Shown: one piece after another, positions 7,559 to 58,311 of the stretch | How the letters are laid out: each line of letters begins with the position of its first letter | How positions within the stretch are numbered: the stretch's first letter is position 1 | Assembly: GCF_000016165.1 (NCBI RefSeq) | Contig: NC_009253.1 | Span: 2,142,332-2,206,331 of the forward strand | DNA length: 64,000 nt | Direction: 5' to 3' | Origin: Desulforamulus reducens MI-1 | GTDB lineage: Bacteria > Bacillota > Desulfotomaculia > Desulfotomaculales > Desulfotomaculaceae | The notes under the pieces: model-generated | Database searches by the model: none | The model's input: only the letters and a program-made list of their open reading frames with translations | Told to the model about the DNA's origin: nothing | Position numbers and translations under genes: made by a program

Positions 7559-7594
7559 AGACACACCTCCAAAATTTCAGAACAATTATTATTT

Positions 7595-10165: not shown

Positions 10166-11197
10166 TCAATTCCTTATATAAATATGATTTGAGAATATCC
10201 AGGGACGAGGTCTGACATGACCTTTATATACTTCCACCCTGTAGACTCCGGGATCAGGGTTAGGCAGTCGAAGAAAATTCGTTTTTCTTTGTAATAATAA
10301 TTTACCGTCCTTTATTACTTTCATATGGGCCTTCGTCGGAAGTATTACGTTTAGTGACATATTGGGTCGTTGTTTCACCTCTTCTCCCATATGCCATTGG
10401 TTGTTTAAGTGCTGGAGATAAAATTGAAAATGCTCCACTCTTCCAGCACAATGATTAACAAGATAACTCCTGCCGCTTTTTATGGCAGATAAAATAATAT
10501 GTCGATCCCTATGCACAATACCCTTTAAGGGTTCCTTGGCAAGTATATGGGTTCTGAATGTCTTAAATTGATACTTATAACTACTAAGTATATTAGGTAT
10601 CCAACTCAACTGCCTTCCGCCATGGGCATCAACCCCTGCTATGGCAGGTACCGGCCTTTGTTTCCCCAAGCGATCCCATTTTAATAAGGTCTCTGAACGA
10701 GGGGGGCTAAGGGTTGCCTTTGGAAACAGAAAACTTTTTAACAGACCCTTTTTATTCTTAAAACTAGCCATCCATTGTGAAAAGTAATTCCAAATTTCTA
10801 AACCGACTGCATTATCCAGATCCCAGTCCTCCCAGTTCATTTTACCTGGAAACATAGGGTTTTCTTTATGATCAGGATGAGCTAAAAATCCAAAGCCGCC
10901 TTGCTCATAGACCTGACTAACGTATTGGTGGGGCAACAGCTTGTTACTGGGCACAGAGTTAATATCGTAGCATAAAAAATGGTTCTTCTTTGGGGTCACT
11001 TCAGATCCCACCAGAACCAACACTCCATGTAGGTATTGCTCACCTTCCCGGTGCAACCCCGCCAAGGTATCGTGATCATTTATTAGAATAAATTTGGCTC
11101 CTGCCTTTGAAGCCGCTTTGGCTATTCCTTTAAAGTCAGCAGAACCATCCGAATAAAATGAATGAATATGCACAACACCGGAATACTGATAAATCAT
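10166..11197 (-). CDS. PHP-domain metal-dependent phosphoesterase
   Basis: 343 residues. Metal-binding PHP motifs are visible in order: VHIHSFYSDGS (about 9-19), INDHDTLAG, VGSEVTPKKNHFL, FLAHPDHKENP and IAGVDAHGG. PHP proteins hydrolyse phosphoesters; the substrate here is not evident. The C-terminal third carries no recognised domain. The ATG start follows GAGGTG. The gene stands alone between polysaccharide deacetylase and rimP, so context gives no pathway. Confidence 0.85.
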   Translation of the reverse strand: MIYQYSGVVHIHSFYSDGSADFKGIAKAASKAGAKFILINDHDTLAGLHREGEQYLHGVLVLVGSEVTPKKNHFLCYDINSVPSNKLLPHQYVSQVYEQGGFGFLAHPDHKENPMFPGKMNWEDWDLDNAVGLEIWNYFSQWMASFKNKKGLLKSFLFPKATLSPPRSETLLKWDRLGKQRPVPAIAGVDAHGGRQLSWIPNILSSYKYQFKTFRTHILAKEPLKGIVHRDRHIILSAIKSGRSYLVNHCAGRVEHFQFYLQHLNNQWHMGEEVKQRPNMSLNVILPTKAHMKVIKDGKLLLQRKTNFLRLPNPDPGVYRVEVYKGHVRPRPWIFSNHIYIRN

Positions 11198-11321
11198 GTT
11201 GCACCTCAGTTAATTAGTTTGCATGGTACAACAATATTTTAAAGCAAATGCATGAATATGTATAAAGGTAATATCTTGTATCTAAGCGAATCTACTTTAG
11301 TACAACATGATACTATTGTTT

Positions 11322-40265: not shown

Positions 40266-41549
40266 TTATGTTAAGTAGAAGAAATATAGATAAGTAGAAG
40301 AAATGATGATGGATACTATCATTAAGGGAAAGGCCACTTTCATAAAGCCAAGGAAAGTAAATTTCATTCCTTGTTTCTCGGCCATTCCAACCACCACCAC
40401 GTTAGCAGAAGCACCAATAATTGTTCCATTGCCGCCCAGACAGGCCCCTAGGGCCAAAGACCACCAGAGGGGGTCAAGGTTAGTCATACCGCCTAAACGT
40501 CCCATATCTTGAATCAACGGAATCATGGTAGCCACAAAGGGGATATTATCCACAAAGGCTGAGGCTATGGCAGACAGCCAAAGGATTAACATACCTGTGG
40601 TAAGCAATTCCCCACCGGTTATTTCCAATGCCTTTGCGGCAATCCATTCAATGACACCAACCTCTTCCAGACCGCCAACCAGAATGAACAATCCAGCAAA
40701 GAAGAAGATGACAGGCCATTCCACAGCCTCCAAGGCATGTTCTGGTTCCTCACCAGTTAATAGCAACAGCAGGGCTGCACCAGCCAGCGCAATGGTAGCC
40801 GATTCTAGATGCGCATACTGGTGCAGTAGGAATCCGCCAATGGTTAATGCCAGAACAAACAAAGCCTTTTTAAGAAGTTTAGCATCCTTAATTTCATCAT
40901 TTTCATTCATGGCTAAAATGTTTTGCTTTAACTCTTCCCGAACCACAAATTCCTTACGGTAAATCCATTTCAAAAGATAAATGGTAACAACCATAATAAC
41001 TATTACTACAGGTGCTAGATTAACCACAAAATCCATAAAACCAAGACCAACGGCAGAACCAATCATAATATTTGGCGGGTCGCCAATCAGAGTAGCTGTA
41101 CCCCCAATATTAGAAGATAAAACTTCTGATATTAAGATTGGCATAGGGTTAATTTCCAAGGCTCTGGCAATGGAGAAAGTAACGGGAACAATCAAAAGCA
41201 CGGTAGTAACATTGTCCAATAGGGCTGATAAAACGGCAGTAATTACAGACAAGGCTACTAATATGGCTAAGGGTTCACCTTTACTTTGTTTGGCCGCCTT
41301 CACGGCAAGATACTCAAAAACACCTGAGCGCCTAGTAATACCCACAATAATCATCATCCCCACCAAAAGACCAATGGTGTTGAAGTCAATGGCTTCAACG
41401 GCCCTCTCCTGATGTAAGACGCCAGCAATGATTAAGATCATCGCGCCAAACAACGCAACGACCGTCCGATGAATCTTTTCAGAAATAATAATTGCGTAAG
41501 CAACGAGAAAGACGGTCGTAGCAAAAATGACTTGACTGTTTCCTTCCAT
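40266..41549 (-). CDS. ArsB/NhaD-type ion permease, copy 1
   Basis: 427 residues, about eleven membrane helices, ion transporter superfamily (ArsB/NhaD, P-protein-like). Family landmarks: FNTIGLLVGMMIIVGI, LDNVTTVLLIVPVTFS, GGTATLIGDPPNIMIGSA, and the repeat-half ALGACLGGNGTIIGASANVV. Members exchange Na+ for H+ or export anions; the substrate is not evident. It is nearly the same length and sequence as the copy at 44378-45661. Good RBS and a promoter candidate of its own lie upstream. Confidence 0.88.
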   Translation of the reverse strand: MEGNSQVIFATTVFLVAYAIIISEKIHRTVVALFGAMILIIAGVLHQERAVEAIDFNTIGLLVGMMIIVGITRRSGVFEYLAVKAAKQSKGEPLAILVALSVITAVLSALLDNVTTVLLIVPVTFSIARALEINPMPILISEVLSSNIGGTATLIGDPPNIMIGSAVGLGFMDFVVNLAPVVIVIMVVTIYLLKWIYRKEFVVREELKQNILAMNENDEIKDAKLLKKALFVLALTIGGFLLHQYAHLESATIALAGAALLLLLTGEEPEHALEAVEWPVIFFFAGLFILVGGLEEVGVIEWIAAKALEITGGELLTTGMLILWLSAIASAFVDNIPFVATMIPLIQDMGRLGGMTNLDPLWWSLALGACLGGNGTIIGASANVVVVGMAEKQGMKFTFLGFMKVAFPLMIVSIIISSTYLYFFYLT

Positions 41550-41609
41550 AATATATCCCCTCTCCTAGTATTTGGTGTGACCATCAGTCCCTTATACACT
41601 GCCATGAAT

Positions 41610-41638
41610 ATTATAATCCTATCAATATCCCTTTACAA
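41610..41638 (-). promoter_or_regulatory. Candidate sigma-A promoter of NhaD-type copy 1
   Basis: Minus strand TTGTAA (41633-41638), 17-base spacer, perfect TATAAT (41610-41615). Transcription would begin near 41603, giving a leader of about 54 bases. Confidence 0.55.
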
Positions 41639-41662
41639 GAATGTTGTCGAAATATTTATTTT

Positions 41663-41703
41663 AATTTAGATACCCTGGTTTTGCAAACCAGGGTATCTAA
41701 ATT
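41663..41703 (-). terminator. Terminator-like hairpin after SLC13 copy 1
   Basis: A perfect 19-base inverted repeat (41663-41681 and 41685-41703) with a 3-base loop, placed 3 bases after the stop codon of the SLC13 gene; both flanks are AT-rich. Unusually long perfect stem for a terminator. Confidence 0.85.
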
Positions 41704-41706
41704 AAA

Positions 41707-43155
41707 TCAGCTTAGCACCGCAGGAATACCAATTAAAGGCCAGAAAGTTAAGGAGAGGATGGCTACCATTGCCAGAATCGCTAAACTTGCTGGAATTCCC
41801 GTCACAAAAAACTCTCCTGTGGTAAATTGTTTTGATTCATAGGCGATAGCATTGGGAGCTGCTCCTATTAATAAAAGGAAGGGCATCCCCGACATAGCTA
41901 CCGAGGCATACAATACCACTTCAGGATTTACGCCCAAATATTTAGCAATAACAAGAGCAACTGGTAAACAGATAGAAATGGCCGCTACGTTCATGATAAA
42001 GTTGGTTAGTATCAATACCAAGAATGATATACCTAATAAGAAAACTAACCAGGGCGCATCTTTGATAAAGGAAAGCCAGCTTACCGCCATCCACTCCGCA
42101 GCACCAGTTTGCCATAGAGCAAAACCAATACTCATTGCGCCAGAGAACAGTAATACAATATTCCAGGGAATGGATTTCTCCAGTTCTTTAACAGTGAGTA
42201 TGTTTGTTATGAAGAATACCAGCCCCGCTGCCAACAACGGAATGGAACGATCCATACTTTTTAAGGCAGGAATGTACTGTTTAAAGATAAGGGTACAAAG
42301 AGCAATACCTACTACAGCTAATACAAAGATTTCCTGTTTAGTAATTGGACCTAACTTATCTAATTCTACTTGAGCTCGCTGCCGTAGCCCCTGTACTTTT
42401 AACTTTTCTGGCTTATAGATTGTAATCATTAAAAAGAAAACAAGGAAAACAGTAATCCAGCCAAAGGGTGCTAGGGCAGCAGAAAATTCAAGAAAACCAA
42501 TATCTTGGCCCGTAAATTCTTTGAAAAAACCTACTGCCGCAGGGTTACGGGCACCGCCCATCATGGTACAGATACTACCAGCACCAGCTGAGAAAGCCAT
42601 TCCCATAAACAATGCTTTTCCAAATTTACTTGGTTTAGTAGGATCTCCTCCGTATAGTGCAAGTATTGACATCATAATTGGGAACATGGCACCAGCCACA
42701 GCAGTGTGTGCCATAACGTGTGTTAAAAGTGCCGTAAGTACAAATACTCCCAGTAAAATCTTTCTTGTATCTTCTCCAACTAAAACAAGCATTTTATAAG
42801 CGACTCTTTTGGTGATTCCACATTGGGTAAAAGCAATACCCACAAGTAGGGAGCCTAAAATAAACATTACAGTGGGATCCATAAAATCCCTAAATGCATC
42901 CTTTGCTTCACGGATACCAAAAACTGGCTGTAATACACCAATAGCAATACTTGTTACTCCAATGGGTATTACTTCAAAAACCCAAAAGATACCTGCCAGT
43001 AGGAAAAGTCCAATACCAGCTTTACCAGATTGTGTTAATTCAAAGGATTTCCCCATAGGGTCAATGGCCGGAGCTACCTGGGGCATAAAATAAAATAAAA
43101 GCAATACTGCAAAGCCAAGAAATATAAAAAAGTATCTTTTTGTCTCTTTACTCAT
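41707..43155 (-). CDS. SLC13/DASS-family anion permease, copy 1
   Basis: 482 residues, about eleven to twelve membrane helices. GLFLLAGIFWVFEVIPIGVTS and FRDFMDPTVMFILGSLLVG match divalent anion:Na+ symporters (DASS), and IPWNIVLLFSGAMSIGFALW starts the second half. At the positions where the family usually has Ser-Asn-Thr, this protein has AHT (in VMAHTAVAGAMFPI) and MNV (in NFIMNVAAISICLP). Substrate may be sulfate, a dicarboxylate or bicarbonate. ATG 43155 lies 5-8 bases after GAGAGGTG. Paralog at 45783-47234. Confidence 0.86.
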   Translation of the reverse strand: MSKETKRYFFIFLGFAVLLLFYFMPQVAPAIDPMGKSFELTQSGKAGIGLFLLAGIFWVFEVIPIGVTSIAIGVLQPVFGIREAKDAFRDFMDPTVMFILGSLLVGIAFTQCGITKRVAYKMLVLVGEDTRKILLGVFVLTALLTHVMAHTAVAGAMFPIMMSILALYGGDPTKPSKFGKALFMGMAFSAGAGSICTMMGGARNPAAVGFFKEFTGQDIGFLEFSAALAPFGWITVFLVFFLMITIYKPEKLKVQGLRQRAQVELDKLGPITKQEIFVLAVVGIALCTLIFKQYIPALKSMDRSIPLLAAGLVFFITNILTVKELEKSIPWNIVLLFSGAMSIGFALWQTGAAEWMAVSWLSFIKDAPWLVFLLGISFLVLILTNFIMNVAAISICLPVALVIAKYLGVNPEVVLYASVAMSGMPFLLLIGAAPNAIAYESKQFTTGEFFVTGIPASLAILAMVAILSLTFWPLIGIPAVLS

Positions 43156-43178
43156 CCAAATCACCTCTCGTTTAAATT

Positions 43179-43263
43179 AAGGTGCTTAATAATTTTTAAC
43201 TTTCAGCATTTTGATCATAAACTGGTTACCAAGGTGCTAATTAGTAGTGGTGCTTATGGTGCA
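43179..43263 (-). promoter_or_regulatory. Cluster of AAGGTGCT-type motifs upstream of SLC13 copy 1
   Basis: Plus-strand motifs AAGGTGCT (43179), AAGGTGCT (43231), GTGGTGCT (43247) and ATGGTGCA (43256) crowd the region just upstream of the start at 43155. Related copies lie upstream of the first MpsC gene, the second SLC13 gene and the SulP gene. A shared transcription factor site is possible but unproven. Confidence 0.35.
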
Positions 43264-43320
43264 ACGAATATTTGCTGACGATAGGAAAAAATGTACTTAA
43301 CCCCCTTTCTTAGAAAATAA

Positions 43321-43374
43321 AAACCAACGTTATATTGGATATTTCTATGGAAATAACCAATATAACGTTGGTTT
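43321..43374 (-). terminator. Terminator after MpsC-like copy 1
   Basis: An 18-base perfect stem (43321-43338 with 43357-43374) plus inner TATTTC/GAAATA pairing, followed on the minus strand by TTTTATTTTC. It separates the MpsC-like gene from the SLC13 gene; the second module has a terminator in the same place. Confidence 0.85.
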
Positions 43375-43461
43375 ACTTTATACCTAGCCTTAGAGGCTCT
43401 GTATCACGCCTACCAACATTCCAATTTTCGACTCGCTGTATGCCTTAAAGCAATTAGCCAG

Positions 43462-43827
43462 TCAGTTTTGTTTTAACTTTTTCTCAAAATCTTGATTAAG
43501 AATAAAAACTTCTATTTGTTCTCCTGTCCGAATACTTATATCTCCATGGCTGCTCATCACCCGACAATTAGTAATATCTGTAATAATTTTTTCTATTTTA
43601 TCTAAGTAAGATTCTCTTAGCTCCATTCTCAATTGTTTTACCAGGGCACGTCCCTTCTTACTAGTGCTGACGTGTTTTTCCTCTTTGGTCAATACTCCCT
43701 TTGAGCGAACTACAACCATATCACGACAAATCATCGCCCTTGTTATCTCCGGTCCCCGGCCAACCAACTCCCTTTGAAATTTTATAAAGGCCTCACAGAT
43801 TTGTTTTTCTAATAATTGCAGATTCAT
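43462..43827 (-). CDS. MpsC-like (DUF2294) small protein, copy 1
   Basis: 121 residues, soluble. The ICEAFIKFQRELVGRGPEIT N-terminus and the VLTKEEKHVSTSKKGRALVK core fit PF10057 (DUF2294), the family named for MpsC of the Staphylococcus membrane-potential-generating MpsABC system. The precise job is unknown; here no MpsA or MpsB is nearby, and the gene instead precedes an SLC13 permease. GGGGGAGGG precedes the ATG. Paralog at 47478-47849. Confidence 0.8.
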   Translation of the reverse strand: MNLQLLEKQICEAFIKFQRELVGRGPEITRAMICRDMVVVRSKGVLTKEEKHVSTSKKGRALVKQLRMELRESYLDKIEKIITDITNCRVMSSHGDISIRTGEQIEVFILNQDFEKKLKQN

Positions 43828-44377
43828 GACCCTCCCCCTTTATAAGCAGTTCATAAACTATTTTAAAGGTGCTTAAATAACTGTTTTTTTAATGTAGGCT
43901 TGTTACTTTTGACACAATCCATATCAAATAAATGATACCAATACTTATTTCAAAGACAGTTGAATTAAAGAATTCTTAAAACTACCAAGTTGTTATCAAA
44001 CTTTAAATAACTTCGAATTTATCTTCTTACCACCATATCCTATCATTTTTATAGCTTGGCGCTATCATTGACAAATTATTACGTCTTGTGATGACAACTC
44101 TTTGTGTCTTTAAGTTACAAATTTAAAATAATTCTGTACACCCCTGTTATTTGCTTTGTTCTACCTTTTATTTTTATTTTCTTTTATTTCCTTCTCCTAA
44201 GTAGTATTTTCTTAGATTTAAACTTTTCATCAGAAAAAAACACCGATTCTTTAATCTCATGATAATAATCGGTGGTTAATTATGCTTTGCTTTATTTTTC
44301 ACAATTCCTCGCCATGTGGTTTGTAAACACCCCTAATGGCACCCGAAAGCCTCCTCGAGCCATCAGATTATAAATGA
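43828..44377. other. Intergenic region between the two transport modules (550 bp)
   Basis: AT-rich and without a convincing coding sequence. It contains an AAGGTGCT motif at 43866-43873 upstream of MpsC-like copy 1 and the terminator of NhaD-type copy 2 at 44234-44276. About 100 bases between that terminator and the NhaD stop are unexplained. No clear promoter could be assigned to MpsC-like copy 1. Confidence 0.7.
44234..44276 (-). terminator. Terminator downstream of NhaD-type copy 2
   Basis: CACCGATT (44241-44248) pairs with AATCGGTG (44267-44274), and the minus strand continues with seven T residues. It lies about 100 bases after the stop codon, leaving a longer 3' UTR than usual. Confidence 0.8.
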
Positions 44378-45661
44378 CTATGTCAAATAAAAGAAGTACA
44401 GATATACGGTCGATATAATAATTGATACAAGCATCAGAGGAAAGGCAACTTTCATAAAACCAATGAAGGTCCACTTTAAACCTCGTTTTTCCGCCATTCC
44501 TGCCACTACTACGTTTGCAGATGCACCAATAATAGTACCATTGCCACCTAGACAGGCACCCAGAGATAAAGACCACCAGAGGGGATTAAGGTCGGTGATA
44601 CCACCTAATCTCCCCATATCTTGAATTAACGGAATCATGGTGGCCACAAAGGGAATATTATCCACAAAGGCTGAGGCAATGGCTGAAAGCCATAGGATCA
44701 GCAAACCCGTAGAAAGCATTTCTCCCCCGGTCAGTTTTAAGGCCTCCTTAGCAATCCACTCAATGACCCCTACTTCTTCAAGGGCGCCAACCAAAATGAA
44801 TAGTCCGGCAAAGAAGAAAATTACTGGCCACTCTACGGCTGCCAAGGCATGTTCTGGTTCATCTCCAGTAATCAGCAACAGTAACGCCGCTCCACCCAGA
44901 GCAATTGTTGCCGATTCTAAGTGTACATATTGGTGCAATAAAAACCCGCCTATGGTTAATGCAATCACAAATAATGATTTCTTTAATAAAACAACATCCT
45001 TTATCTCATCCAAGGGATTCAATGCCATAATGTTTTGCTTTAATTCTTCGCGAACTACCAGTTGTTTTTTATAAAGCATCTTTAAAAGAAACACCGTAAC
45101 AGCCATAATAACTATAATTACCGGGGCTAGATTAAATACAAAATCCATAAACCCAAGGCCCGTTGCAGAACCAATCATAATATTTGGTGGGTCACCTATG
45201 AGGGTTGCTGTACCACCTATATTGGATGATAAAACCTCTGAGATTAAAATAGGAGATGGATTTATTTCCAAAGACTTTGCAATGGAAAAGGTCACTGGAA
45301 CAATTAGTAACACAGTTGTTACATTATCCAGTAAAGCTGACAACAATGCAGTAATTAATGACAATGATATGAGTATAGCTAAGGGTTCCCCTTTACTGCT
45401 CTTGGCCGCCTTTACCGCTAGATATTCAAAAACCCCTGAATTTCTAGCAATACCCACGATTATCATCATGCCGACCAAGAGGCCTATGGTATTAAAATCA
45501 ATTGCCTCTATGGCCTTCTCTTGTTGAAGAACCCCCCCAACGATAACAATCATCGCACCCAAAAGTGCTATCACTGCCCTGTGAATCTTTTCGGAAATGA
45601 TAATGGCATAGGTTAGTAAAAATACTGCTGTGGCAAAAATCACCTGGCTGTTTCCTTCCAC
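44378..45661 (-). CDS. ArsB/NhaD-type ion permease, copy 2
   Basis: 427 residues, same length as copy 1 and closely similar along its whole length, including LDNVTTVLLIVPVTFS and GGTATLIGDPPNIMIGSA. About eleven membrane helices. The start is GTG 45661, 8 bases after GAGGGGGA and aligned with the start of copy 1; the longer reading to 45739 crosses the promoter. Substrate unknown (Na+/H+ exchange or anion export are family options). Confidence 0.88.
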   Translation of the reverse strand: MEGNSQVIFATAVFLLTYAIIISEKIHRAVIALLGAMIVIVGGVLQQEKAIEAIDFNTIGLLVGMMIIVGIARNSGVFEYLAVKAAKSSKGEPLAILISLSLITALLSALLDNVTTVLLIVPVTFSIAKSLEINPSPILISEVLSSNIGGTATLIGDPPNIMIGSATGLGFMDFVFNLAPVIIVIMAVTVFLLKMLYKKQLVVREELKQNIMALNPLDEIKDVVLLKKSLFVIALTIGGFLLHQYVHLESATIALGGAALLLLITGDEPEHALAAVEWPVIFFFAGLFILVGALEEVGVIEWIAKEALKLTGGEMLSTGLLILWLSAIASAFVDNIPFVATMIPLIQDMGRLGGITDLNPLWWSLSLGACLGGNGTIIGASANVVVAGMAEKRGLKWTFIGFMKVAFPLMLVSIIISTVYLYFFYLT

Positions 45662-45704
45662 AGTTATCCCCCTCAATTTGATTAATTTAGATGCCATTTT
45701 TATG

Positions 45705-45739
45705 TTGACACACCTGAAATTATACTCCAGGTGTGCCAA
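45705..45739 (-). promoter_or_regulatory. 35-bp dyad covering the -10 box of NhaD-type copy 2
   Basis: Minus strand TTGGCACACCTG and CAGGTGTGTCAA form 12-base arms (one mismatch, G-U in RNA) separated by 11 bases that contain TATAAT. There is no T-run, so it is unlikely to be a plain terminator; a repressor operator is the simplest reading. Confidence 0.5.
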
Positions 45740-45746
45740 CAGTCAA
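45719..45746 (-). promoter_or_regulatory. Candidate sigma-A promoter of NhaD-type copy 2
   Basis: Minus strand TTGACT (45741-45746), 16-base spacer, perfect TATAAT (45719-45724). The dyad at 45705-45739 overlaps its -10 and spacer. Transcription would begin near 45712. Confidence 0.65.
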
Positions 45747-45782
45747 CGAAATCTTCTTGTAGTTTAGGGGTTGCTGCCAACT

Positions 45783-47234
45783 TTAATGTATCAAGGCTGA
45801 CATCCCTATTAACGGCCAGTAGGTAAAGGTCATTAGTACTAATATGCAAAGAAGCATAGCGCTGGCCGGAATTCCTGTCTTGAAGAATTCTCCTGTTGTA
45901 AACTGTTTAGATTCATAGGCCATTGCGTTGGGGGCTGCACCAATCAACAGCAGGAAGGGCATACCAGCCATTGCGGTGGCTCCATAGAGAATAAGTTCAG
46001 GGTTTACACCTAGATATTGAGCAATAACCAAAGCAACCGGTAAGGTGATCGCAATGGCTGCAACGTTCATGATAAAGTTGGTCATAATCATAACTAAGAA
46101 ACAAATGCCCAGTACAAATACTAACCAGTGAGCATCTACCAGCATGGCTAACCATTTAACGGCAATCCACTGGGCGGCGCCAGTCTTCCAGAGGCAGAAG
46201 CCAATACTCATGGCCCCGGAGAAGAGCAATACAATGTTCCAAGGGATCTTCTTTTCTAAATCTTCGACGGTTAAAATATTGGACAAAAAGAACAATAAGC
46301 CAGCCAGTAGCAAAGGAACAGAACGATCCATTGGCTTTAATGCAGGAATAATAGCCTGGAGAACCAACATGGCCAATGCGCAGAATACAACAATCCCTAC
46401 AAAGATTTCTTGCTTGTTGACAGGACCTAATTTTGCATATTCAATCCTTGCTTTTTCCCTAAGTCCCGGAATCTTTGTTTTTTCTGGTTTATAAATAATC
46501 AGTAATAATGCCCATAGCAAAAATACAGTCAGCCAGCCAAAGGGAGCCAGATGTGCAGAAAATTCAAGGAAAGATACCTCTGCTCCAGTAAACTCTGTGT
46601 AAAAACCCACTGCCGCAGGATTGCGGGCCCCGCCAAGTAAGGTACAAATACTTCCTGCACCAGCAGTGTAGGCCATGCCAATGAATAGTGCCTTACCAAA
46701 ATTAGTGGGTTTGCCGTCTGGATTTTCGCCGTATAATGCTAAAATGGTAACCAATATTGGGAACATCGTAGCAGCTACCGCGGTGTGAGCCATAATATGA
46801 GTTAACAAAGCCGTAATGACAAAAACTCCTAGTAGAATTTTTCTTGTATCCTCACCCACAACATCCAGCATTTTATAAGCAAGACGCTTGGTGATACCAG
46901 CCTTAGTAAAGGCTAAGCCAATTAATAATGATCCTAAAATAAACATTACAGTGGGATCCATAAAATCCCTAAAGGCCTCTTTTGCTGGCCGGATAAGAAA
47001 CAAGGCCTGAACAACACCGATGGCAATACTTGTTACACCAATGGGAGTAACCTCAAAGACCCACCAAATACCCGCCAGCAAGAAAAGACCAATGGCAGCT
47101 TTACCTTCCTGGGATAAATCAAAGGCTTTTCCGGAAGGGTCAATGGCTGGACTAAATTGCGGCGCAAAATAAAACCCTAAGAAAAGTGCAACACCTAAAA
47201 GAATAAATGCTATTCGCTTTATGTTTTCGCTCAT
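45783..47234 (-). CDS. SLC13/DASS-family anion permease, copy 2
   Basis: 483 residues. Same architecture as copy 1, with FRDFMDPTVMFILGSLLIG and IPWNIVLLFSGAMSIGFCLW, and the same altered signature positions (MAHTAVAATMFPI and NFIMNVAAIAITLP). The start at ATG 47234 follows AAAGGGGTG; an earlier in-frame start at 47255 is less well supported. Lies between MpsC-like and NhaD-type genes as in the first module. Confidence 0.86.
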   Translation of the reverse strand: MSENIKRIAFILLGVALFLGFYFAPQFSPAIDPSGKAFDLSQEGKAAIGLFLLAGIWWVFEVTPIGVTSIAIGVVQALFLIRPAKEAFRDFMDPTVMFILGSLLIGLAFTKAGITKRLAYKMLDVVGEDTRKILLGVFVITALLTHIMAHTAVAATMFPILVTILALYGENPDGKPTNFGKALFIGMAYTAGAGSICTLLGGARNPAAVGFYTEFTGAEVSFLEFSAHLAPFGWLTVFLLWALLLIIYKPEKTKIPGLREKARIEYAKLGPVNKQEIFVGIVVFCALAMLVLQAIIPALKPMDRSVPLLLAGLLFFLSNILTVEDLEKKIPWNIVLLFSGAMSIGFCLWKTGAAQWIAVKWLAMLVDAHWLVFVLGICFLVMIMTNFIMNVAAIAITLPVALVIAQYLGVNPELILYGATAMAGMPFLLLIGAAPNAMAYESKQFTTGEFFKTGIPASAMLLCILVLMTFTYWPLIGMSALIH

Positions 47235-47352
47235 TACATACACCCCTTTTAACATTTTTCCGTACCAGGTGCTTTTATGAAATAGGTCCTAAACCACCCA
47301 CTTATTAATCGTCGTCTTTTTTTATCATCCCCTTTCACTGAAATAAAAAATA

Positions 47353-47395
47353 AAGACCAGCGTTCAACAAGCAAATAAATTGCCCATTGATACCG
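47353..47395 (-). terminator. Terminator after MpsC-like copy 2
   Basis: Minus strand GACCAGCG and CGCTGGTC arms enclose an imperfect interior and are followed by TTTATTTTTTATT. A second small hairpin, TCACAAAG/CTTTGTGA (47407-47426), lies between it and the stop codon. Same position as the terminator in module 1, but unrelated sequence. The exact outer edges are approximate. Confidence 0.75.
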
Positions 47396-47477
47396 CTGGT
47401 CTGTTATCACAAAGATCACTTTGTGAAATACCCACCAACTACAAGGTCAGCTGACAATTAAACCCTTTAAAAAGAAT

Positions 47478-47849
47478 TTAACCACCAGTTGTTTTTAATT
47501 GTTTTTCCAAATCAATATCTAAAATAAATACCTCAATACATTCACCAGTTCGAATACTGATATCCCCATGACTGCTTTTTACGTTGCATTGGGCGATAAC
47601 TGCAATTATTTTCTCAATCTGTTCCACATAAGTGTCCCTAAGTTCCATCCGCAATTGTTTTACCAAAGCACGGCCTTTGCGACTGCCGCTTACATGCTTC
47701 TCTTCTTTGGTCAGAACTCCGCTGGATCTGATGATAATCATATCCCGGCAAATCATTGCCTTGGTATATTCCGGACCTCGACCAACCAGAGATCTTTGGA
47801 ACTTAATGTATTCATCGCAGATTTTCTTTTCTAACATGGACTGTGACAT
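47478..47849 (-). CDS. MpsC-like (DUF2294) small protein, copy 2
   Basis: 123 residues, clear paralog of copy 1: ICDEYIKFQRSLVGRGPEYT, VLTKEEKHVSGSRKGRALVK, SSHGDISIRTGE. Soluble. Likely the first gene of module 2. An inverted repeat upstream (47869-47896) may be its operator. Function is not known beyond the DUF2294 family name. Confidence 0.8.
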   Translation of the reverse strand: MSQSMLEKKICDEYIKFQRSLVGRGPEYTKAMICRDMIIIRSSGVLTKEEKHVSGSRKGRALVKQLRMELRDTYVEQIEKIIAVIAQCNVKSSHGDISIRTGECIEVFILDIDLEKQLKTTGG

Positions 47850-47868
47850 TTACCAGCCCCCTAACGGA

Positions 47869-47896
47869 ATGACAAACTCGTTAGAATATTTGTCAT
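47869..47896 (-). promoter_or_regulatory. Inverted repeat upstream of MpsC-like copy 2
   Basis: ATGACAAA (47869-47876) and TTTGTCAT (47889-47896) are perfect 8-base arms separated by 12 bases, 20 bases upstream of the start codon. Spacing suits a dimeric regulator or a leader hairpin. No equivalent was found before copy 1. Confidence 0.35.
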
Positions 47897-48061
47897 TTCT
47901 TTCTTAATTTGTGTTTTAAATTTAATAAAAGACAGAATTAATGTACAGGGTGATTTTAAGTTGTTTTTTGTGCTTTTCGTCACTAGTTCTTTATCAATTA
48001 AACCACTGCTTACATTCTCTTTAGATTAAAATTTTTGTCATTACACTTACGGCCTAGGCCA

Positions 48062-48107: not shown

Positions 48108-48383
48108 TTATATTGCACTGGTTGCCATTGCTTTATCAAAGAAGAATAACCGCTCTTTTTTTCTATTTACTTCCATTTCACCATCACGGCACCTGAAATG
48201 TTCACAGCGGGTAGGAATAACTGAAATATCCGTTACGATCATATAATCAATTTCCTTAGGAGACTGGCGTTTTACTTCTGCTTCAACCAACTTAATGTTT
48301 TCCTGAATAATGGTACTAAGATTCATTCGTATTTGGCAATTCTCCTTGTGTATACAGACGCCACATTTAGAAGCTCCCACCAT
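48108..48383 (-). CDS. Unknown 91-residue Cys-rich protein
   Basis: Not recognised. The N-terminus carries a CGVCIHKENC cluster (Cys 7, 10, 16) and CEHFRC follows later, so five Cys could bind zinc or an iron-sulfur cluster. The middle is a charged helix (NIKLVEAEVKRQSPKE). ATG 48383 is 7 bases after GGGGGGAAG. The gene is flanked by its own terminator and a leader hairpin, so it is probably monocistronic. It sits next to the second MpsC-like gene. Confidence 0.7.
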   Translation of the reverse strand: MVGASKCGVCIHKENCQIRMNLSTIIQENIKLVEAEVKRQSPKEIDYMIVTDISVIPTRCEHFRCRDGEMEVNRKKERLFFFDKAMATSAI

Positions 48384-48426: not shown

Positions 48427-48473
48427 AGGCCAGCACAATGTACGGATAATATTCCGTCTACATGCGCTGGCCT
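48427..48473 (-). promoter_or_regulatory. Long leader hairpin (attenuator-like) upstream of the Cys-rich gene
   Basis: Minus strand AGGCCAGC pairs with GCTGGCCT, and the interior continues as CATGTAGACGGA against TCCGTACATTG, giving a nearly full 47-base hairpin that ends in TTTTCATTTT. It lies about 40 bases before the start codon of the 91-residue gene. It could be an intrinsic terminator/attenuator or the end of an upstream transcript. Confidence 0.5.
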
Positions 48474-48670
48474 ACCCCATGCCAAGTTACTCTTCGCATT
48501 TTGTCTGCCATCTATTTATCTTAGCAATTTATTAAAACTAAGTGACATAAGCTTTGTCTTAAAATAACGGTTTAGTGAATTTTTGTACAGTCTCATATAG
48601 TAGAACTACTAAAGTTTATCATTACCATAAACCCTTATTCTTTTGATTTCTTTAATTTACTAAAAAAAGA

Positions 48671-50696: not shown

Positions 50697-52418
50697 TTAG
50701 GCTTGGGCAGTCCTTTCGTGGCTACTATAGCCGACATTTCGAACAAATGAACTTGCCTCATCCAGAGCCTTACCGGAAGTTGCAAATACCTCATCGTCTT
50801 CCATAAATATATTGTCTTTACCAATATGTTCGACGATATGCATTTTATCCAGCATTTTAAGAATCTTCGGTGTAACACCAGACAAGATAACCCTTTTGTC
50901 GTCACCCTGAGCCCGGTTGATAAAGGCTTCTATCACCTCTAGGGCAGTTATGTCAATAACAGAGATACCCTTAAAGCGAATCATAAATACCTTTGAATCC
51001 GAGTAGCCTTCCGATAGTTTTCTCTCTAAATCTGCTGATGAACCAAAATAAAGGTTTCCTTCCAATTGGAAGATGGAAATAGAGGGATTCTGACCATTAA
51101 TTGCCTGCTCAACAAAACGTCCATCATTGGCGCGAACTGGTGCCAGGGTCTTAACATTAGCAACACCAGAATCTTTCAGGTAAAGGATTAACGAAAGTGC
51201 TACACCAGCATAAATAGCTTGTTCCAGTTCTGGAGCAAGGATAGTGGTGAACATGGTAACAAGTAATACAACTGCATCATTTCGGTTGGTTTTTAGAACT
51301 TTGGCCACAGCCTTTTTATCAATCATGGAGTAGGCCACAACCATGATCACCCCAGCCAAACTGGCGTTAGGAATATACCTGGCATAGGGAGCAAAGAAAA
51401 TCAGAACCAGCAAAATTATAAAACCTACCAAGACACCCGACAGCCGTGTCCTACCACCGTTTTGGAAGGTGATAGCAGAACGAGTAAAGGATCCAGAACC
51501 AGCAATACTGCTAAAGAAAGCACCGCCCATGTTTGCAATACCCTGACCTATAAATTCTTGGTTAGGATCAATTTTTTGCAGAGTTTTTGAGGCAATGGCC
51601 TTGGAGATAGACACAGCTTCTACAAGACCGATAATGGCAATAACCAACGCTCCTGCACCCAGATCAGCTGCTGCAGACAAACTAAAATTCGGCATACTTA
51701 GGGGTGGTATGGCCTGGGGAATTTTACCCACTACCTTAATACCATACTGCTCTAAACCTAATGTCATTACTAAGATAACAGAAAAAACAACACCGAGCAA
51801 AGCACCGGGAAGGTTTTTGTTAATTTTTTTACAAATTAATATTACCGCAATGGTGAAAATACCCACACCAAATGCAACATAATTCATTTTGTCAAGGTTC
51901 TGGAAACAAGCCATTACTTTATCAATACTGGATAGGTGACCTTTGGGTAACTTGATGCCCAATAGGTTGTTTAATTGCCCCATTGCAATAATAATACCCG
52001 CACCTGCCGTAAAACCTACAATTACTGCGTGCGATACATAGTTTACCAGTGAACCAAGCCTCAAGGTACCCATGGCAAATTGTATGGCGCCAACCAAGAA
52101 GGTAAGTAAAAACAGATTACCAAAGAAATTATCACTTCCTAAAAATGATGCCATGTAAGCAGCAATTAACAATGAGATTGCGTTAGTCGGTCCTGTGGCT
52201 AACTGGTTCGAACTACCAAAGGAAGAAGCTAAAATCGTTAATACAATTCCAGAGTAAAGTCCGTATGCAGGGTGTACACCTGCTATCATGGCATAGGCCA
52301 TGGTTTGAGGCAAGGCAACTACAGCTACAGTGAGTGCTGCTATAAAGTCAAATCGAAAATCCTTTTTATCATAGTTTCTTAGGGTGTCTAAAATCGGTAC
52401 GTACTTTAAAATGTTCAT
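50697..52418 (-). CDS. SulP-family anion transporter with STAS domain
   Basis: 573 residues. About a dozen membrane helices (AALTVAVVALPQTMAYAMIAG; GPTNAISLLIAAYMASFLG; GSGSFTRSAITFQNGGRTRL) and a C-terminal STAS domain (ISIFQLEGNLYFGSSADLE; MIRFKGISVIDITALEVIE). Bacterial SulP proteins import sulfate, bicarbonate or C4-dicarboxylates. ATG 52418 follows GGGGGC at 7 bases. It is the last gene of a probable operon with two CBS-pair proteins and a WYL regulator. Confidence 0.92.
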   Translation of the reverse strand: MNILKYVPILDTLRNYDKKDFRFDFIAALTVAVVALPQTMAYAMIAGVHPAYGLYSGIVLTILASSFGSSNQLATGPTNAISLLIAAYMASFLGSDNFFGNLFLLTFLVGAIQFAMGTLRLGSLVNYVSHAVIVGFTAGAGIIIAMGQLNNLLGIKLPKGHLSSIDKVMACFQNLDKMNYVAFGVGIFTIAVILICKKINKNLPGALLGVVFSVILVMTLGLEQYGIKVVGKIPQAIPPLSMPNFSLSAAADLGAGALVIAIIGLVEAVSISKAIASKTLQKIDPNQEFIGQGIANMGGAFFSSIAGSGSFTRSAITFQNGGRTRLSGVLVGFIILLVLIFFAPYARYIPNASLAGVIMVVAYSMIDKKAVAKVLKTNRNDAVVLLVTMFTTILAPELEQAIYAGVALSLILYLKDSGVANVKTLAPVRANDGRFVEQAINGQNPSISIFQLEGNLYFGSSADLERKLSEGYSDSKVFMIRFKGISVIDITALEVIEAFINRAQGDDKRVILSGVTPKILKMLDKMHIVEHIGKDNIFMEDDEVFATSGKALDEASSFVRNVGYSSHERTAQA

Positions 52419-52453
52419 AGTACATGCCCCCAACAATAAAATTTCGATGTGGT

Positions 52454-54962: not shown

Positions 54963-55430
54963 AGGAACCCCCCCATGTGAAAAATAGTAACTTATTTCCC
55001 TACCTTTTGCTGTCGCAAAACAGACTTTTGTTTGTTTTCAAGCAATAAATTTAAATCGTTTTACATGGTAAATTTTTTTTGATTAATATCAAACATTTTC
55101 TTTTTTAGAATTCTAAAAATATGCTATAATGTGGTTCAAATCTTTACAAAACAAGACAATATTCAGTTGTCTGTTAATTATTTTAAATGCAAACTTCATG
55201 CCAATAAAAACCGCATCAAATCACGTTCTTTGAGTATGGAGATTGTTTGTTAACATACACTTATGGTTTTACACAATGATTTATCCATCACAGGTTACTT
55301 TCTTTCTAGACAAAAACCTATTTTCGCGCTGGTTTGTGACCAACGTAACAATTCCTTTAGTGCTGTCTGATTTTATACAGGCATAATTTTAATTGTATGA
55401 TTTTATGCAACGGAACAAGGAGGGATGGAT
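54963..55430. other. Divergent control region between the SulP operon and the two-component genes (468 bp)
   Basis: No coding sequence. Visible elements: a TTTTGC-TGTC-GCAAAA palindrome at about 55004-55019, an extended -10 promoter on the plus strand (55122-55130), a small AGACAA/TTGTCT hairpin shortly after it, and an AT-rich leader. No clear -24/-12 sigma-54 promoter was found in either direction. Confidence 0.65.
55122..55130 (+). promoter_or_regulatory. Extended -10 promoter candidate for the histidine kinase gene
   Basis: TGC followed by a perfect TATAAT (55125-55130). The -35 region is poor, as expected for an extended -10 promoter. The start site would be near 55137, giving a 5' leader of almost 300 bases. 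Confidence 0.45.
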
Positions 55431-56978
55431 TTGCTGCAAATTTTTAAAAATAAATCCTTTGCCACACAAATAATGGTTCTAGTTTCTGCCATTTTATTAA
55501 TTCCAATTCTTGTGATGGTGTATGATATTTTTTTCTCTGGTGCTAAGGATGAGATGTTATTAAAAACCAAAGAAGAGCGACTGGGTACTATGGTAAAGGC
55601 AACTGTGAGGGATTTAAATAGTTACCTTAATAAGCTTCCCGGCGAAACACTTATCATTAATTCAAAAAGTACACAAATTTTAGCCAACACCTTCAAATTA
55701 ACGGCAAAATCACTGGCAGACGCCAACCCAGGCGTTCGCATGGGGCTATATATTCCAGAAACCAAGGATTTATATGTTTACGGTTTCCTTCACCAATATC
55801 GCCCTATGACTCCAGAGGAAATAAAGGTTCGCGAAAAGCGTGTTTTAAACGAAGCAGCTTCAGGTTTAACTGCCGTATCAGCTACAAAAGAACCTTTATC
55901 TCGCATTACTGGTTCACTTGGAGATCAAACCTTTGAATATTTGATGCCTGTAACATATCAAGGAAAACTAATCGCCGTAGCATGGGCAGATGAACGTGTT
56001 CATCCGGTTTTTGCCCAAAGCCGACAGTTTAGCCTCATCGCTAGATATCTCACCCTTTTGGGGCTCATCTTTGGCCTAGGAGCCGCCTTGTATGTAATCC
56101 ATAACTTAGCCACTGAGGTTAGAGTAATTAAAAAGGGGCTTTTGGGTATGGAGGAAGACCTTGATAAGCGGCTTCCGGCTATGCCCGGTGAAATTGGAGA
56201 AGTTGTTCAGGCCATCAACAACTTAGCTGATTCATTAAAGGAGAAGAAAAGACTTCAAGAGGAATTAATGCGCTCAGAAAGGCTGGTTGCCCTAGGGCGA
56301 TTGGTTACTGGCGTAGCTCACGAATTAAGGAACCCTCTGGGAATTGTTAGGGCTACGGTCCAAGTGATGGACGGGGAATATAAAAATCTGGAAGGCATAA
56401 AGGATTACACCAAGGTCATTTGTGAGCAAATCGACCGGGGAAATAAAGTAATTCAGGAACTGCTAGATTTCGGGAGACCCAGCAAACCAATCGTAAGCCC
56501 TATTGATTTAAATGGATTACTTGAATCCGTTCTCACTTTTACTTACCCTATCCTCAGACAAAATAACATCCAATTAGTAAGGGAGTTTACAAAAGACTTA
56601 CCTAAAGCCAATATTGATTCAGATCGTATCAAACAAGTATTTGTAAATTTAATTTTAAATGCTATCCAAGCAATGCCGGGTGGCGGCAATCTAACAATTA
56701 ATACTTTTGCTGAAAAGGACACGATACAGGTTCAATTTACTGATTCTGGTAAAGGTATCTCGCCCAAAGACCTGCCACGAATTTTCGACCCCTTTTACAC
56801 CACTAAGGATGATGGTGCTGGATTAGGCCTTGCAATTAGCCACCAGATCATCCGTATGCACGGGGGTGCTATTTGGGTGTCAAGCACGTCGCCCACCGGA
56901 ACTACCTTTAATGTATGCTTGCCCAAATCCAGCCCACAGGAAGGACGTGTTGATATTGAACAAAATTCTAGTTATTGA
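55431..56978 (+). CDS. Membrane sensor histidine kinase (AtoS/NtrB-like)
   Basis: 515 residues. Two membrane helices (near 10-35 and about 200-225) enclose an extracytoplasmic sensor; a HAMP-like segment (LDKRLPAMPGEIGEVVQAIN) follows, then HisKA with GVAHELRNPLG (phosphoacceptor His) and HATPase with NLILNAIQAMPGG and GAGLGLAIS. It pairs with the sigma-54 activator downstream. TTG 55431 is preferred because AAGGAGGG sits 6-7 bases upstream, whereas ATG 55425 is almost on top of it. The 3' end overlaps the next gene. Confidence 0.9.
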   Translation: MLQIFKNKSFATQIMVLVSAILLIPILVMVYDIFFSGAKDEMLLKTKEERLGTMVKATVRDLNSYLNKLPGETLIINSKSTQILANTFKLTAKSLADANPGVRMGLYIPETKDLYVYGFLHQYRPMTPEEIKVREKRVLNEAASGLTAVSATKEPLSRITGSLGDQTFEYLMPVTYQGKLIAVAWADERVHPVFAQSRQFSLIARYLTLLGLIFGLGAALYVIHNLATEVRVIKKGLLGMEEDLDKRLPAMPGEIGEVVQAINNLADSLKEKKRLQEELMRSERLVALGRLVTGVAHELRNPLGIVRATVQVMDGEYKNLEGIKDYTKVICEQIDRGNKVIQELLDFGRPSKPIVSPIDLNGLLESVLTFTYPILRQNNIQLVREFTKDLPKANIDSDRIKQVFVNLILNAIQAMPGGGNLTINTFAEKDTIQVQFTDSGKGISPKDLPRIFDPFYTTKDDGAGLGLAISHQIIRMHGGAIWVSSTSPTGTTFNVCLPKSSPQEGRVDIEQNSSY

Positions 56979-58311
56979 TGATGAAGAGCATATGTGCTGG
57001 GCCTTAGAGAAGGGACTCATGCAGGAGGGATATCAGGTTTTTACATCTACCCGAGGGAAGCACGGACTTGATATTATTCGTAAAGAAACTCCCTCACTGG
57101 TCATTCTGGATTTAAAAATGCCAGAAATGGACGGGTTAGAGGTACTAGTTAAGGCTAAGGATTTAATGCCAAAGCTTCCTATCATTATGATTACAGCCCA
57201 TGGAACCATTGATACTGCCATTGAGGCTATGAAACTGGGAGCAACAGATTATATTACTAAACCCTTTGACCTTGATGAACTTAAAATGGTGATTCGACAG
57301 GCTTTGATGGTTAATCATTTGCAAGAAGAAGTAACTTTTTTGCGATCAGAGTTAAATAAAAAGTATGGTCAAATTGTCGGAAATAGTCAGGCAATTCATG
57401 ATGTTTGTGGCCTAATTGAAAAGGTCGCCGATAGTAATGCCACAGTTCTAGTTACCGGGGAAAGTGGAACTGGCAAAGAAATTACTGCTCTATCTATACA
57501 TCAACTAAGCTCACGTCGGGATAAACCCTTTGTCCCCATTAACTGTGCAGCTCTTCCAGAATCTTTGTTGGAAAGTGAATTGTTTGGTCATGAAAAGGGA
57601 GCTTTTACTGGAGCAGTGGCACGTAAATTGGGACGATTTGAGTTAGCTAATCAAGGAACCCTCTTCCTGGACGAAATTACAGAGATGCCCCTATCTATGC
57701 AAGTAAAACTTCTGCGAGTATTACAGGAAAAGGAATTCGAAAGAGTGGGCGGGACTGATAGTATAAAAATTGACGTAAGGGTTATTGCCGCAACTAACAG
57801 AGACCCCATGGAATGTATCAGAAAGGGTACCTTTAGAGAGGACTTGTTCTACCGGCTGAATGTTTTACCCATCCATTTACCGCCCTTAAGGGAACGAACA
57901 GAAGATATACCCTTATTAGCTATGCATTTCATTAAAAAATTCAATCCATCCCAGGAGCAACGTATGTCCCCCGAGGCCATGGGATTATTGATATCCTATG
58001 AATGGCCCGGCAATATCCGCGAGTTACAAAATGTTATTGAAAGATCTATTATTTTAGCTCAGGGTAATGAAATAAAACCTCACCATTTGCCAAAGGAAAT
58101 TCAAAAATTAGATGAGGTAAAAAACGAAACAACCCACGGCCTTATTATTAATTTCCCAGATGATGGAATTTCCTTTGATGAAGTAGAAAAGGAATTAATT
58201 TTAAAAGCGTTAGAAAAGAGCAATGGCAATCAAACCCGGGCTGCCCAATTACTGGGTATAACCCGCTCTGCCTTACTTTACAGAGCCCAAAAATATAGGC
58301 TAAAAATATAA
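56950..58311 (+). CDS. NtrC-family sigma-54-dependent response regulator
   Basis: About 453 residues. Receiver domain with LVIDDEEHMCWALEKGL and the phosphoacceptor Asp in LVILDLKMPEMDG, AAA+ domain with Walker A GESGTGKE and the sigma-54 contact loop GAFTGAV, Walker B LFLDEI, and a C-terminal Fis-type HTH (GNQTRAAQLLGITRSALLYR). It activates sigma-54 promoters. Start choice is uncertain among GTG 56947, TTG 56950 and TTG 56956; 56950 has the best spacing from AGGAAGG. It overlaps the kinase gene by about 29 bases, indicating coupling. Confidence 0.9.
   Translation: MILNKILVIDDEEHMCWALEKGLMQEGYQVFTSTRGKHGLDIIRKETPSLVILDLKMPEMDGLEVLVKAKDLMPKLPIIMITAHGTIDTAIEAMKLGATDYITKPFDLDELKMVIRQALMVNHLQEEVTFLRSELNKKYGQIVGNSQAIHDVCGLIEKVADSNATVLVTGESGTGKEITALSIHQLSSRRDKPFVPINCAALPESLLESELFGHEKGAFTGAVARKLGRFELANQGTLFLDEITEMPLSMQVKLLRVLQEKEFERVGGTDSIKIDVRVIAATNRDPMECIRKGTFREDLFYRLNVLPIHLPPLRERTEDIPLLAMHFIKKFNPSQEQRMSPEAMGLLISYEWPGNIRELQNVIERSIILAQGNEIKPHHLPKEIQKLDEVKNETTHGLIINFPDDGISFDEVEKELILKALEKSNGNQTRAAQLLGITRSALLYRAQKYRLKI

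Follow-up and report, generated by a model that had tools for sequence, protein, structure and literature searches.

A terminator-overlapping RNA element beside mpsC (DUF2294) genes suggests that MpsC is an attenuation regulator of probable sulfate permeases in Desulforamulus

In a window of 64,000 nucleotides from Desulforamulus reducens MI-1 (contig NC_009253.1, positions 2,142,332 to 2,206,331), a small protein of the MpsC (DUF2294, PF10057) family is encoded twice, each time ahead of a DASS-family and a CitMHS-family permease. The gap between mpsC and the DASS gene holds a conserved RNA element that has two mutually exclusive pairings and covarying helices, and that also lies beside mpsC genes in other bacteria. 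Its pairing logic provides good support for a cis-acting terminator switch. We consider it rather likely that MpsC is an RNA-binding attenuation regulator, similar in action to LicT or PyrR, that controls a probable sulfate permease at this locus; in other words, the function of MpsC is probably in the control of gene expression and not in the transport of ions.

The genome is a single contig of 3,608,104 bases with two MpsC genes and, at an expectation value (E) ≤ 1e-30, two DASS genes. The order on the minus strand is SulP, a DDE transposase, o44, MpsC-DASS-CitMHS (47849-44378) and MpsC-DASS-CitMHS again (43827-40266). The features of the duplicated part are as follows, R1 being the covariance model described below:

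48462..48515, minus strand: third RNA element, leader of o44; R1 31.0 bits, E 6.9e-5, outside the R1 training set; counterpart in 9/9 genus members.
48108..48383, minus strand: o44, a 91-residue cysteine-containing protein with no Pfam match, behind the third RNA element and just upstream of mpsC copy A.
47478..47849, minus strand: mpsC copy A (PF10057/DUF2294), 123 residues; Pfam E 3e-36, 124.3 bits versus a cut-off of 23.
47390..47442, minus strand: RNA element copy A (P1-P2 core; with terminator 47346-47452); R1 46.4 bits, E 4.8e-9 (training sequence); fold z -7.0.
45783..47255, minus strand: DASS-family permease copy A, probable sulfate permease (483-residue form from 47234); TIGR00785 217.4 bits versus 198.6; AHT/MNV signature.
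44378..45661, minus strand: CitMHS-family permease copy A, 427 residues, GTG start; PF03600 343 bits versus 31.9.
43462..43827, minus strand: mpsC copy B (PF10057/DUF2294), 121 residues; Pfam E 4.2e-37, 127 bits versus 23.
43362..43420, minus strand: RNA element copy B (P1-P2 core; with terminator 43314-43432); R1 73.9 bits, E 1.9e-16 (training sequence); fold z -8.0; three mutually complementary segments.
41707..43164, minus strand: DASS-family permease copy B, probable sulfate permease; TIGR00785 217.3 bits versus 198.6.
40266..41549, minus strand: CitMHS-family permease copy B, 427 residues; PF03600 353 bits versus 31.9.

The original prediction, made from the DNA letters alone, had described a tandemly duplicated three-gene ion-transport module. 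The duplicated triad is real, with all six genes on the minus strand where they had been placed, and the equal gene lengths hold once DASS is taken to begin at internal ATG codons (its longest open reading frames have 490 and 485 residues). Paralogy was borne out by identities between copies A and B of 71% for MpsC, 71% for DASS and 84% for CitMHS, and the DUF2294 assignment passed a profile search, both small proteins scoring far above the PF10057 cut-off. The label of the third gene as an ArsB/NhaD permease stood in part: the Pfam cut-offs for ArsB and CitMHS were reached, whereas the NCBIfam models for ArsB (85-114 bits, cut-offs 415-760) and NhaD (37.5/39.1 versus 80, and 44.7 versus 577 for copy B) were missed, MamN scoring 220-226 versus 500. 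As had been noted, neither MpsA nor MpsB was found among the window neighbours scanned with Pfam. The claim that each gene has its own terminator or promoter, however, did not survive, as the hairpins in the mpsC-DASS gaps belong to a conserved RNA that resembles an attenuator.

An alignment of the two MpsC-DASS gaps revealed a conserved stretch, copies A and B, in which segment 1 (UUGGU) is able to pair with segment 2 (ACCAA), and segment 2 also with segment 3, the 3' arm of the terminator. In the core, which spans 57 nucleotides, helix P1 is accompanied by a hairpin (P2) that has a purine-rich internal step, and the joining stretches are conserved. A terminator and an alternative helix that exclude each other are present in copy B of the window and in four loci of the genus; a loose three-segment scan also flagged seven unlike regions among 116. 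Nine members of the genus (G000-G008; L numbers denote fetched loci) were compared, and their 12 gap elements (five of copy A, seven of copy B) were used to train R1. The element occupies the MpsC-DASS gap in 5/5 (A) and 7/7 (B) genomes having that gap, these being the sequences that trained R1. In its 11 distinct sequences 96.6% of the cells are paired, compared with 24-50% in slid controls, and both-side changes occur in 5 of the 14 pairs (11 such cells versus 4.4 in shuffles).

Outside the training set, R1 found the element upstream of o44 in all nine genus members (E 4e-6 to 0.06; o44 itself is labelled in seven other genus loci, an eighth counterpart being read from the DNA of G002) and a further copy upstream of a helix-turn-helix gene in G005 (E 5e-12). 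Across the class, 11 of 113 genomes gave matches at E ≤ 0.1, nine of them being the genus. G007, which has no DASS, has kept both MpsC_A and the o44 element, whereas 21 DASS loci without MpsC (a few contigs counted twice) had no R1 match at E ≤ 5. Rfam 15 gave no match above a gathering score for the window elements (one tRNA only) or for nine other MpsC loci, and permissive Rfam scans of two leaders returned merely hairpin look-alikes far below the gathering scores.

The element is not confined to the genus. A search of 91 other loci with R1 yielded 14 matches at E ≤ 10. The top eight (E ≤ 0.0055) all come from a single other genus, seven from gaps between mpsC and an alcohol dehydrogenase (ADH) gene and one from an ADH-like leader; the seven gap elements scored E 1e-4 to 0.006, and the MpsC proteins there are 21-41% identical to those of the window. 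Among the other six, with positions assigned by hand, three lie directly 3' of mpsC and two 5'. Reading of the sequences placed related elements 3' of many mpsC genes in both clades of the MpsC tree. A strict three-segment descriptor found them 3' of 20/75 MpsC genes versus 3/933 other genes of the same loci (p 3e-21; shuffle mean 0.45), although one of the 20 (L059) is in the wrong register. An alignment of 30 elements has 84.8% of its cells paired (20-46% in slid controls), 82 both-side cells versus 34.6 when shuffled, a covariation score of 0.485 versus 0.224 that was reached in 0/500 shuffles, and both-side changes in 8/8 P2 pairs; conserved are an invariant GG/CC in P1 and the AGRC and GUAA-type joining stretches.

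These 30 sequences, 20 of them MpsC-adjacent rows from outside the genus, made up a second covariance model, R2, whose new matches were counted apart. Over 90 loci R2 gave 59 matches at E ≤ 5, 19 of which are training rows. The 26 new matches at E ≤ 0.1 comprise 21 within 300 nucleotides of mpsC on its strand (16 on the 3' side, 5 on the 5' side) and 5 elsewhere; for the 14 at E > 0.1 the corresponding figures are 3 on the 3' side, 4 on the 5' side and 7 elsewhere. In 398 genomes of the phylum there were 41 matches in 31 genomes at E ≤ 0.1, and 37 in 28 genomes at E ≤ 1e-3. When matched to genes by hand, the 37 were found to lie directly 3' of mpsC (28), at mpsC fragments (two, in G186 and in G364, where the next gene was read as a phosphoenolpyruvate carboxylase, PEPC), ahead of o44 (4) or elsewhere (3). 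MpsC is encoded in 27 of those 28 genomes and a fragment in the remaining one, and 11 of the 28 had given no training sequence. Matches also come from other classes. In the 2.63 Mb Acetoanaerobium record the only R2 match at E ≤ 1 is the one 3' of its mpsC, a training row; on an Anoxybacillus plasmid, which did not contribute to training, R2 matched 3' of DUF2294.

Two of the three strong matches elsewhere (L346, about 1552-1601, and L347, about 1166-1215; G196 and G261, one genus) precede genes read as NuoE/NuoF-type without a profile search, and these elements may possibly mark further members of the regulon. Four weaker R2 matches, above 1e-3, also lie away from mpsC (G443, G055, G209:C1 and G495, the last two being L348 and L349), that of G055 in a locus without mpsC.

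From these results a mechanism may be proposed. The triad would be a regulated permease operon instead of a three-subunit transporter, and the mpsC product a small cytosolic regulator whose target is the structured RNA that emerges immediately 3' of mpsC during transcription. In one state P1 (UUGGU/ACCAA) would close around hairpin P2 and the polymerase would continue into the two permease genes; in the alternative state, the downstream segment would pair with the 3' strand of P1, the terminator would form and transcription would stop. MpsC, perhaps together with a small effector, would bind the P1-P2 form and favour read-through: a stabilised P1 excludes the terminator, and therefore binding should switch the operon on. 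The DASS-CitMHS pair, with its probable role in sulfate uptake, and o44 would thus be induced together. Elsewhere the same mpsC-plus-RNA cassette would serve the genes that it precedes, for PEPC, the bicarbonate permease SbtA, PurE/PurK-like proteins, enzymes resembling carbon monoxide dehydrogenase (CODH) and zinc ADH; many genes behind the cassette are tied to CO2 or bicarbonate.

MpsC is the natural candidate for the trans-acting partner because the RNA lies beside mpsC in distant clades and before unrelated genes, and because it flanks mpsC on both sides in some loci and is missing from the MpsC-less DASS loci; G007, with MpsC_A and the o44 element but no DASS, fits such a partnership. We infer RNA binding by MpsC from this genetic linkage; an effector, the sense in which the switch is thrown and a role of sulfate as the substrate are likewise proposals.

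Regulation of this kind has precedents. The antiterminators LicT and BglG stabilise an RNA form (the ribonucleic antiterminator, RAT) that shares sequence with the 5' arm of a terminator ahead of permease genes, and their binding leads to read-through. The P1-P2 form described here likewise overlaps the 5' arm of a terminator before permease genes, but MpsC belongs to another protein family (PF10057 only), its RNA has no Rfam match and lies mostly 3' of the regulator gene, and binding by MpsC is presumed. In the attenuation of pyr operons by PyrR, the regulator gene lies near the head of the operon with attenuators between it and the next gene. MpsC loci, too, have an attenuator after the regulator gene and some also one upstream (5 of the 26 new matches); in contrast to PyrR, to which MpsC bears no sequence relation by Pfam, the target genes of MpsC vary and the topology predicts antitermination on binding. 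With the riboswitches and leaders of Rfam 15 the element shares a cis-acting form with an overlapping terminator, but it matches none of them above the gathering score.

Several observations weigh against a role of MpsC as the RNA's partner. Pfam assigns MpsC to PF10057 only and to no known RNA-binding family. Its AlphaFold model (pLDDT 88) has no solid structural neighbour: the best Foldseek E was 0.029 and the VIA Z at most 6.9 (TRAPP-type chains), scores below what separates relatives from common arrangements. The isoelectric points of 57 family members are not strongly basic (median 7.9, range 5.3-9.7). By the strict descriptor 55 of 75 MpsC genes have no element, and with R2, itself trained largely on MpsC-adjacent sequences, an element 3' of mpsC was found at E ≤ 0.1 35 times over the 90 loci, 19 of these being training rows. 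The formate dehydrogenase plasmid loci of Bacilli lack an element 3' of DUF2294 by the descriptor, and G443, a genome without MpsC, has one at E 0.0014 before an operon read as LarB-PEPC. On the reverse strand of its own elements R1 gives matches as well, with E as low as 2e-4, so that weak E-values are rough. Finally, a riboswitch, too, could have such a small conserved core.

A riboswitch is the main rival explanation: the RNA would itself bind bicarbonate, a CO2-derived metabolite, sulfate or an ion, and mpsC would be a co-regulated gene that merely happens to come first in many operons. The small core with its invariant GG/CC in P1 and its AGRC and GUAA-type stretches around covarying helices would agree with this, as would the MpsC-less element before the LarB-PEPC-type genes of G443 and those before the NuoE/NuoF-type genes of G196 and G261. 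However, the element usually follows mpsC instead of heading the operon, its matches at E ≤ 1e-3 are confined to genomes with MpsC or a fragment of it (28/28), and the DASS-CitMHS pairs of 21 MpsC-less loci have no element. We regard a riboswitch as rather unlikely, and attenuation by MpsC remains the reading that we prefer.

The original prediction had instead taken the three gene products for one functional unit, possibly one that couples sulfate uptake to Na+/H+ cycling. The two permeases do recur as a pair: CitMHS lies within one gene of DASS in 19 of 31 class loci fetched outside the genus and in 26 of 74 named DASS loci, the latter also holding a CBS-pair protein (46), a kinase or response regulator (41), SulP (12) and MpsC (3). 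The named relatives are the best 80 of at least 538 matches, in 78 loci, of which 74 had a recognised DASS open reading frame and four were missed by the caller; these best 80 carry Desulfo-, Thermodesulfo- and Nitrospirota names, names of other phyla and some of Beta- and Gammaproteobacteria. Conserved order and duplication within the genus, together with this adjacency, speak for a transport module, but MpsC as a member of it found no support. The gene-neighbourhood search for recurrent triads found MpsC in 0/31 of the class loci (BLAST, with which PF10057 agrees) and in only 3/74 of the named ones, all three of Desulforamulus; MpsC and the RNA precede unrelated soluble enzymes, MpsC is kept without DASS in G007, and the motifs expected for Na+ coupling are changed, as described below. 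A three-part transport unit thus appears most improbable. The arrangement is real and conserved and the permeases do form a unit; the third member is most likely a regulator with its own RNA target.

The suggested link to sulfate fared better, as an association: the DASS subfamily tracks dissimilatory sulfate reduction, marked by aprA. Among 113 class genomes, tallied by hand, 41 have both DASS and aprA, 3 have DASS without aprA over the cut-off, 29 have aprA alone and 40 have neither (Fisher p 1.2e-8; 44 DASS genomes, one from a fragment). One of the three has no aprA match at all, and two have a split or truncated aprA. In addition, a sat gene lies about 7 kb from DASS in one class locus, and Qmo genes are nearby in two named loci. 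On the strength of its co-occurrence with aprA and of the sulfate reducers among the named records, we read DASS, with CitMHS, as a probable sulfate permease. PMC5840216 reports that two Firmicutes have DASS genes in the vicinity of sat and aprAB, and its tally for D. reducens is four DASS and two SulP, compared with two DASS in the present analysis. Its group Ci of putative sulfate permeases likewise comes from Firmicutes and other sulfate reducers, with two such genes near sat/aprAB; our proteins may belong to this group, and both of their Ser-Asn-Thr motifs are changed, reading AHT and MNV. The accessible parts of two proteomic papers on D. reducens (PMC4759654, PMC4137172) mention none of these genes.

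According to PMC7553777, two Ser-Asn-Thr motifs form the Na1/Na2 and substrate sites of this family, and Na+-independent exchangers have been described. When aligned to VcINDY-type chains, both motifs are altered in DASS, to AHT and MNV, and they are so throughout a twelve-member alignment made before any pattern search. The signatures MAHTAVA and TNFIMNV occur in 116/116 and 111/116 rows, respectively, partly by selection, the search patterns themselves having held both. Na+ coupling of DASS, as originally proposed, is therefore doubtful: both motifs are changed. There is, then, a subfamily of DASS proteins from sulfate reducers with both motifs replaced (MAHTA, TNFIMNVAA), suggesting altered cation coupling.

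As for MpsC itself, the assumption that it works with MpsA and MpsB in Staphylococcus is contradicted in print: according to PMC6689103 and PMC8552792 (also PMC10269494), growth is not impaired in a ΔmpsC mutant, and mpsAB is able to complement in the absence of mpsC. The inorganic carbon uptake systems MpsABC and DabAB have the small-protein family PF10057 in common with our loci, and on an S. pettenkoferi plasmid DUF2294 is the second gene after DabA; unlike these systems, the window has no MpsA or MpsB among the neighbours scanned, and mpsC is dispensable for MpsAB in those reports. Within open-licence papers we found no function for MpsC/DUF2294, the only mention of DUF2294 being in unrelated fungal work, and, to judge by the listing, no riboswitch or attenuator associated with a bicarbonate transporter and PEPC.

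MpsC occurs in 111/398 genomes of the phylum at E ≤ 1e-8. Its neighbours include SbtA, PEPC, PurE/K-like proteins, carbonic anhydrase, biotin carboxylase, CODH-type proteins, DUF4914 and zinc ADH, further KdpA, OadB, H+-pyrophosphatase, an ammonium transporter, an amino-acid permease and other permeases, and on Bacilli plasmids SbtA, DabA and formate dehydrogenase genes. Such membrane neighbours, CitMHS/DASS relatives among them, could mean that MpsC is a cytosolic protein like PII or SbtB which gates adjacent transporters directly. However, polytopic membrane proteins are only weakly in excess among the neighbours (19/107 at ±1 versus 33/353 far; p 0.02, or 0.12 for clade 2 by itself), and membrane neighbours were accordingly rejected as a criterion for a transporter partner; many partners (PEPC, PurE/K-like, ADH, CODH-type) are soluble, and gating would leave the RNA unexplained. 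We hold direct gating to be very unlikely and retain attenuation.

Among the first 25 families listed, AIRC, PEPC, Sbt_1, biotin carboxylase and carbonic anhydrase account for 22 of 140 immediate neighbours of MpsC and for none of 119 genes at ±5. A bicarbonate-type panel (SbtA, PEPC, PurE/K-like, carbonic anhydrase, biotin carboxylase), built after such neighbours had been seen and with related genomes counted repeatedly, was present near 20/52 MpsC loci (panel sources left out) versus 0/31 DASS control loci; by gene the figures are 30/290 near versus 3/330 far, with 0/18 at divergent MpsC loci. By eye, a single clade of the MpsC tree takes in every panel-bearing locus, and the proteins of Desulforamulus are in the other. 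MpsC was therefore discarded as a bicarbonate marker for the window, and bicarbonate is not assumed to be the signal here. A recurrent cluster of MpsC with PurE-like, PurK-like and SbtA proteins (L044, L050, L066, L229, L233; without SbtA, L239 and L240), at times with PEPC or biotin carboxylase, may represent an uncharacterised carboxylation route.

Within the genus the triad arrangement is conserved and not due to chance. Both triads are syntenic in four of the nine genomes (G000, G001, G006, G008), and partial forms exist in five: G003 and G004 have triad B only, the fragmentary G002 has remnants of B from which CitMHS was not recovered, G005 has triad A alone, with DASS_A split by an insertion, and G007 has MpsC_A alone. 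Orthologues of mpsC copy A are present in G001, G005, G006, G007 and G008. The locus is syntenic between SulP and ligD-dprA-topA, except for G005, which has other genes on the CitMHS side. Mean identities, given in the order A versus A, B versus B and A versus B, come to 79/81/69% for MpsC, 92/90/72% for DASS and 89/92/81% for CitMHS; between the window and G006 the non-synonymous divergence (dN) is 0.06-0.14, the synonymous one (dS) being saturated or not computable.

A tree of DASS (quick method, SH-aLRT) joins copy A to Desulfosporosinus (99) and next to another family (95), copy B being placed elsewhere. Because the two copies separate, they look older than the genus. In the trees of CitMHS (Desulfosporosinus included) and MpsC, on the other hand, the copies group within the genus. 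A recent tandem duplication of the whole triad was rejected on these grounds; copies of different age, or gene conversion, may account for the trees. Duplication of the permease pair is not unique, as G038 (L111), of another family, has DASS-CitMHS-DASS-CitMHS in tandem without MpsC. The insertion in G005 (L040) is a transposase-type helix-turn-helix gene that splits DASS_A, and a similar gene with an integrase core lies near SulP; the two are at 6920-7594 and 10170-11216. Another helix-turn-helix gene follows CitMHS_A in four relatives (L035 8240-8662, L040 3729-4172, L041 10991-11422, L043 11949-12377); in G005 it has an RNA element of its own, and in the window no such gene was found in this position. 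By eye, the stretches upstream of the two mpsC copies are alike (47860-48000 and 43830-44150, minus strand), with the repeats CTGTACA or GTGTACA, ACACAAA and TTTGTCA, those of copy B being conserved in the genus; they may be shared operators.

Further upstream, the neighbourhood holds the following features:

49009-50463, minus strand: DDE transposase between SulP and o44.
50697..52436, minus strand: SulP-family permease at the head of the neighbourhood; PF00916 325 bits; TIGR00815 370 bits, just under the cut-off of 380.
55189..55203, minus strand: sigma-54 type -24/-12 promoter of the CBS-HTH-CBS-SulP operon (HTH, helix-turn-helix), TGGCATGAAGTTTGC; match at the same place in 9/9 genus members.
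55425..58311, plus strand: histidine kinase and sigma-54 response regulator (Pfam) adjoining the sigma-54 promoter.

The sigma-54 promoter is also present in the six Desulfosporosinus loci that hold the SulP cluster (L152-L155, L157, L158); the seventh locus (L159) is a short contig without that cluster. The proteins of the six are highly similar to those of the window: the response regulator at 80-81%, SulP at 74-81%, the kinase at 72-74% and DASS at 83-86%. Their genes form a compact cluster in which no MpsC was detected, and horizontal transfer is likely.

With regard to the wider meaning, we tentatively suggest that DUF2294/MpsC and the RNA may together form a widespread, undescribed two-part switch of Gram-positive anaerobes and some Bacilli. 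It would sense inorganic carbon or one-carbon state and be placed before bicarbonate permeases, carboxylases, formate and CO genes and, in Desulforamulus, sulfate permeases, tying sulfate uptake to CO2 status. The Pfam name of MpsC, Na+-translocating membrane potential-generating system, is unsupported by the deletion work, and a covarying RNA beside mpsC in many families offers a concrete and cheap test of what the protein does. For annotators, not every mpsC should be taken for part of an ion pump, nor every hairpin after mpsC for a plain terminator. If our reading is true, the element would be a further regulatory RNA family without an Rfam match, and sulfate uptake, with which sulfate reduction begins, would have its control linked to a general switch.

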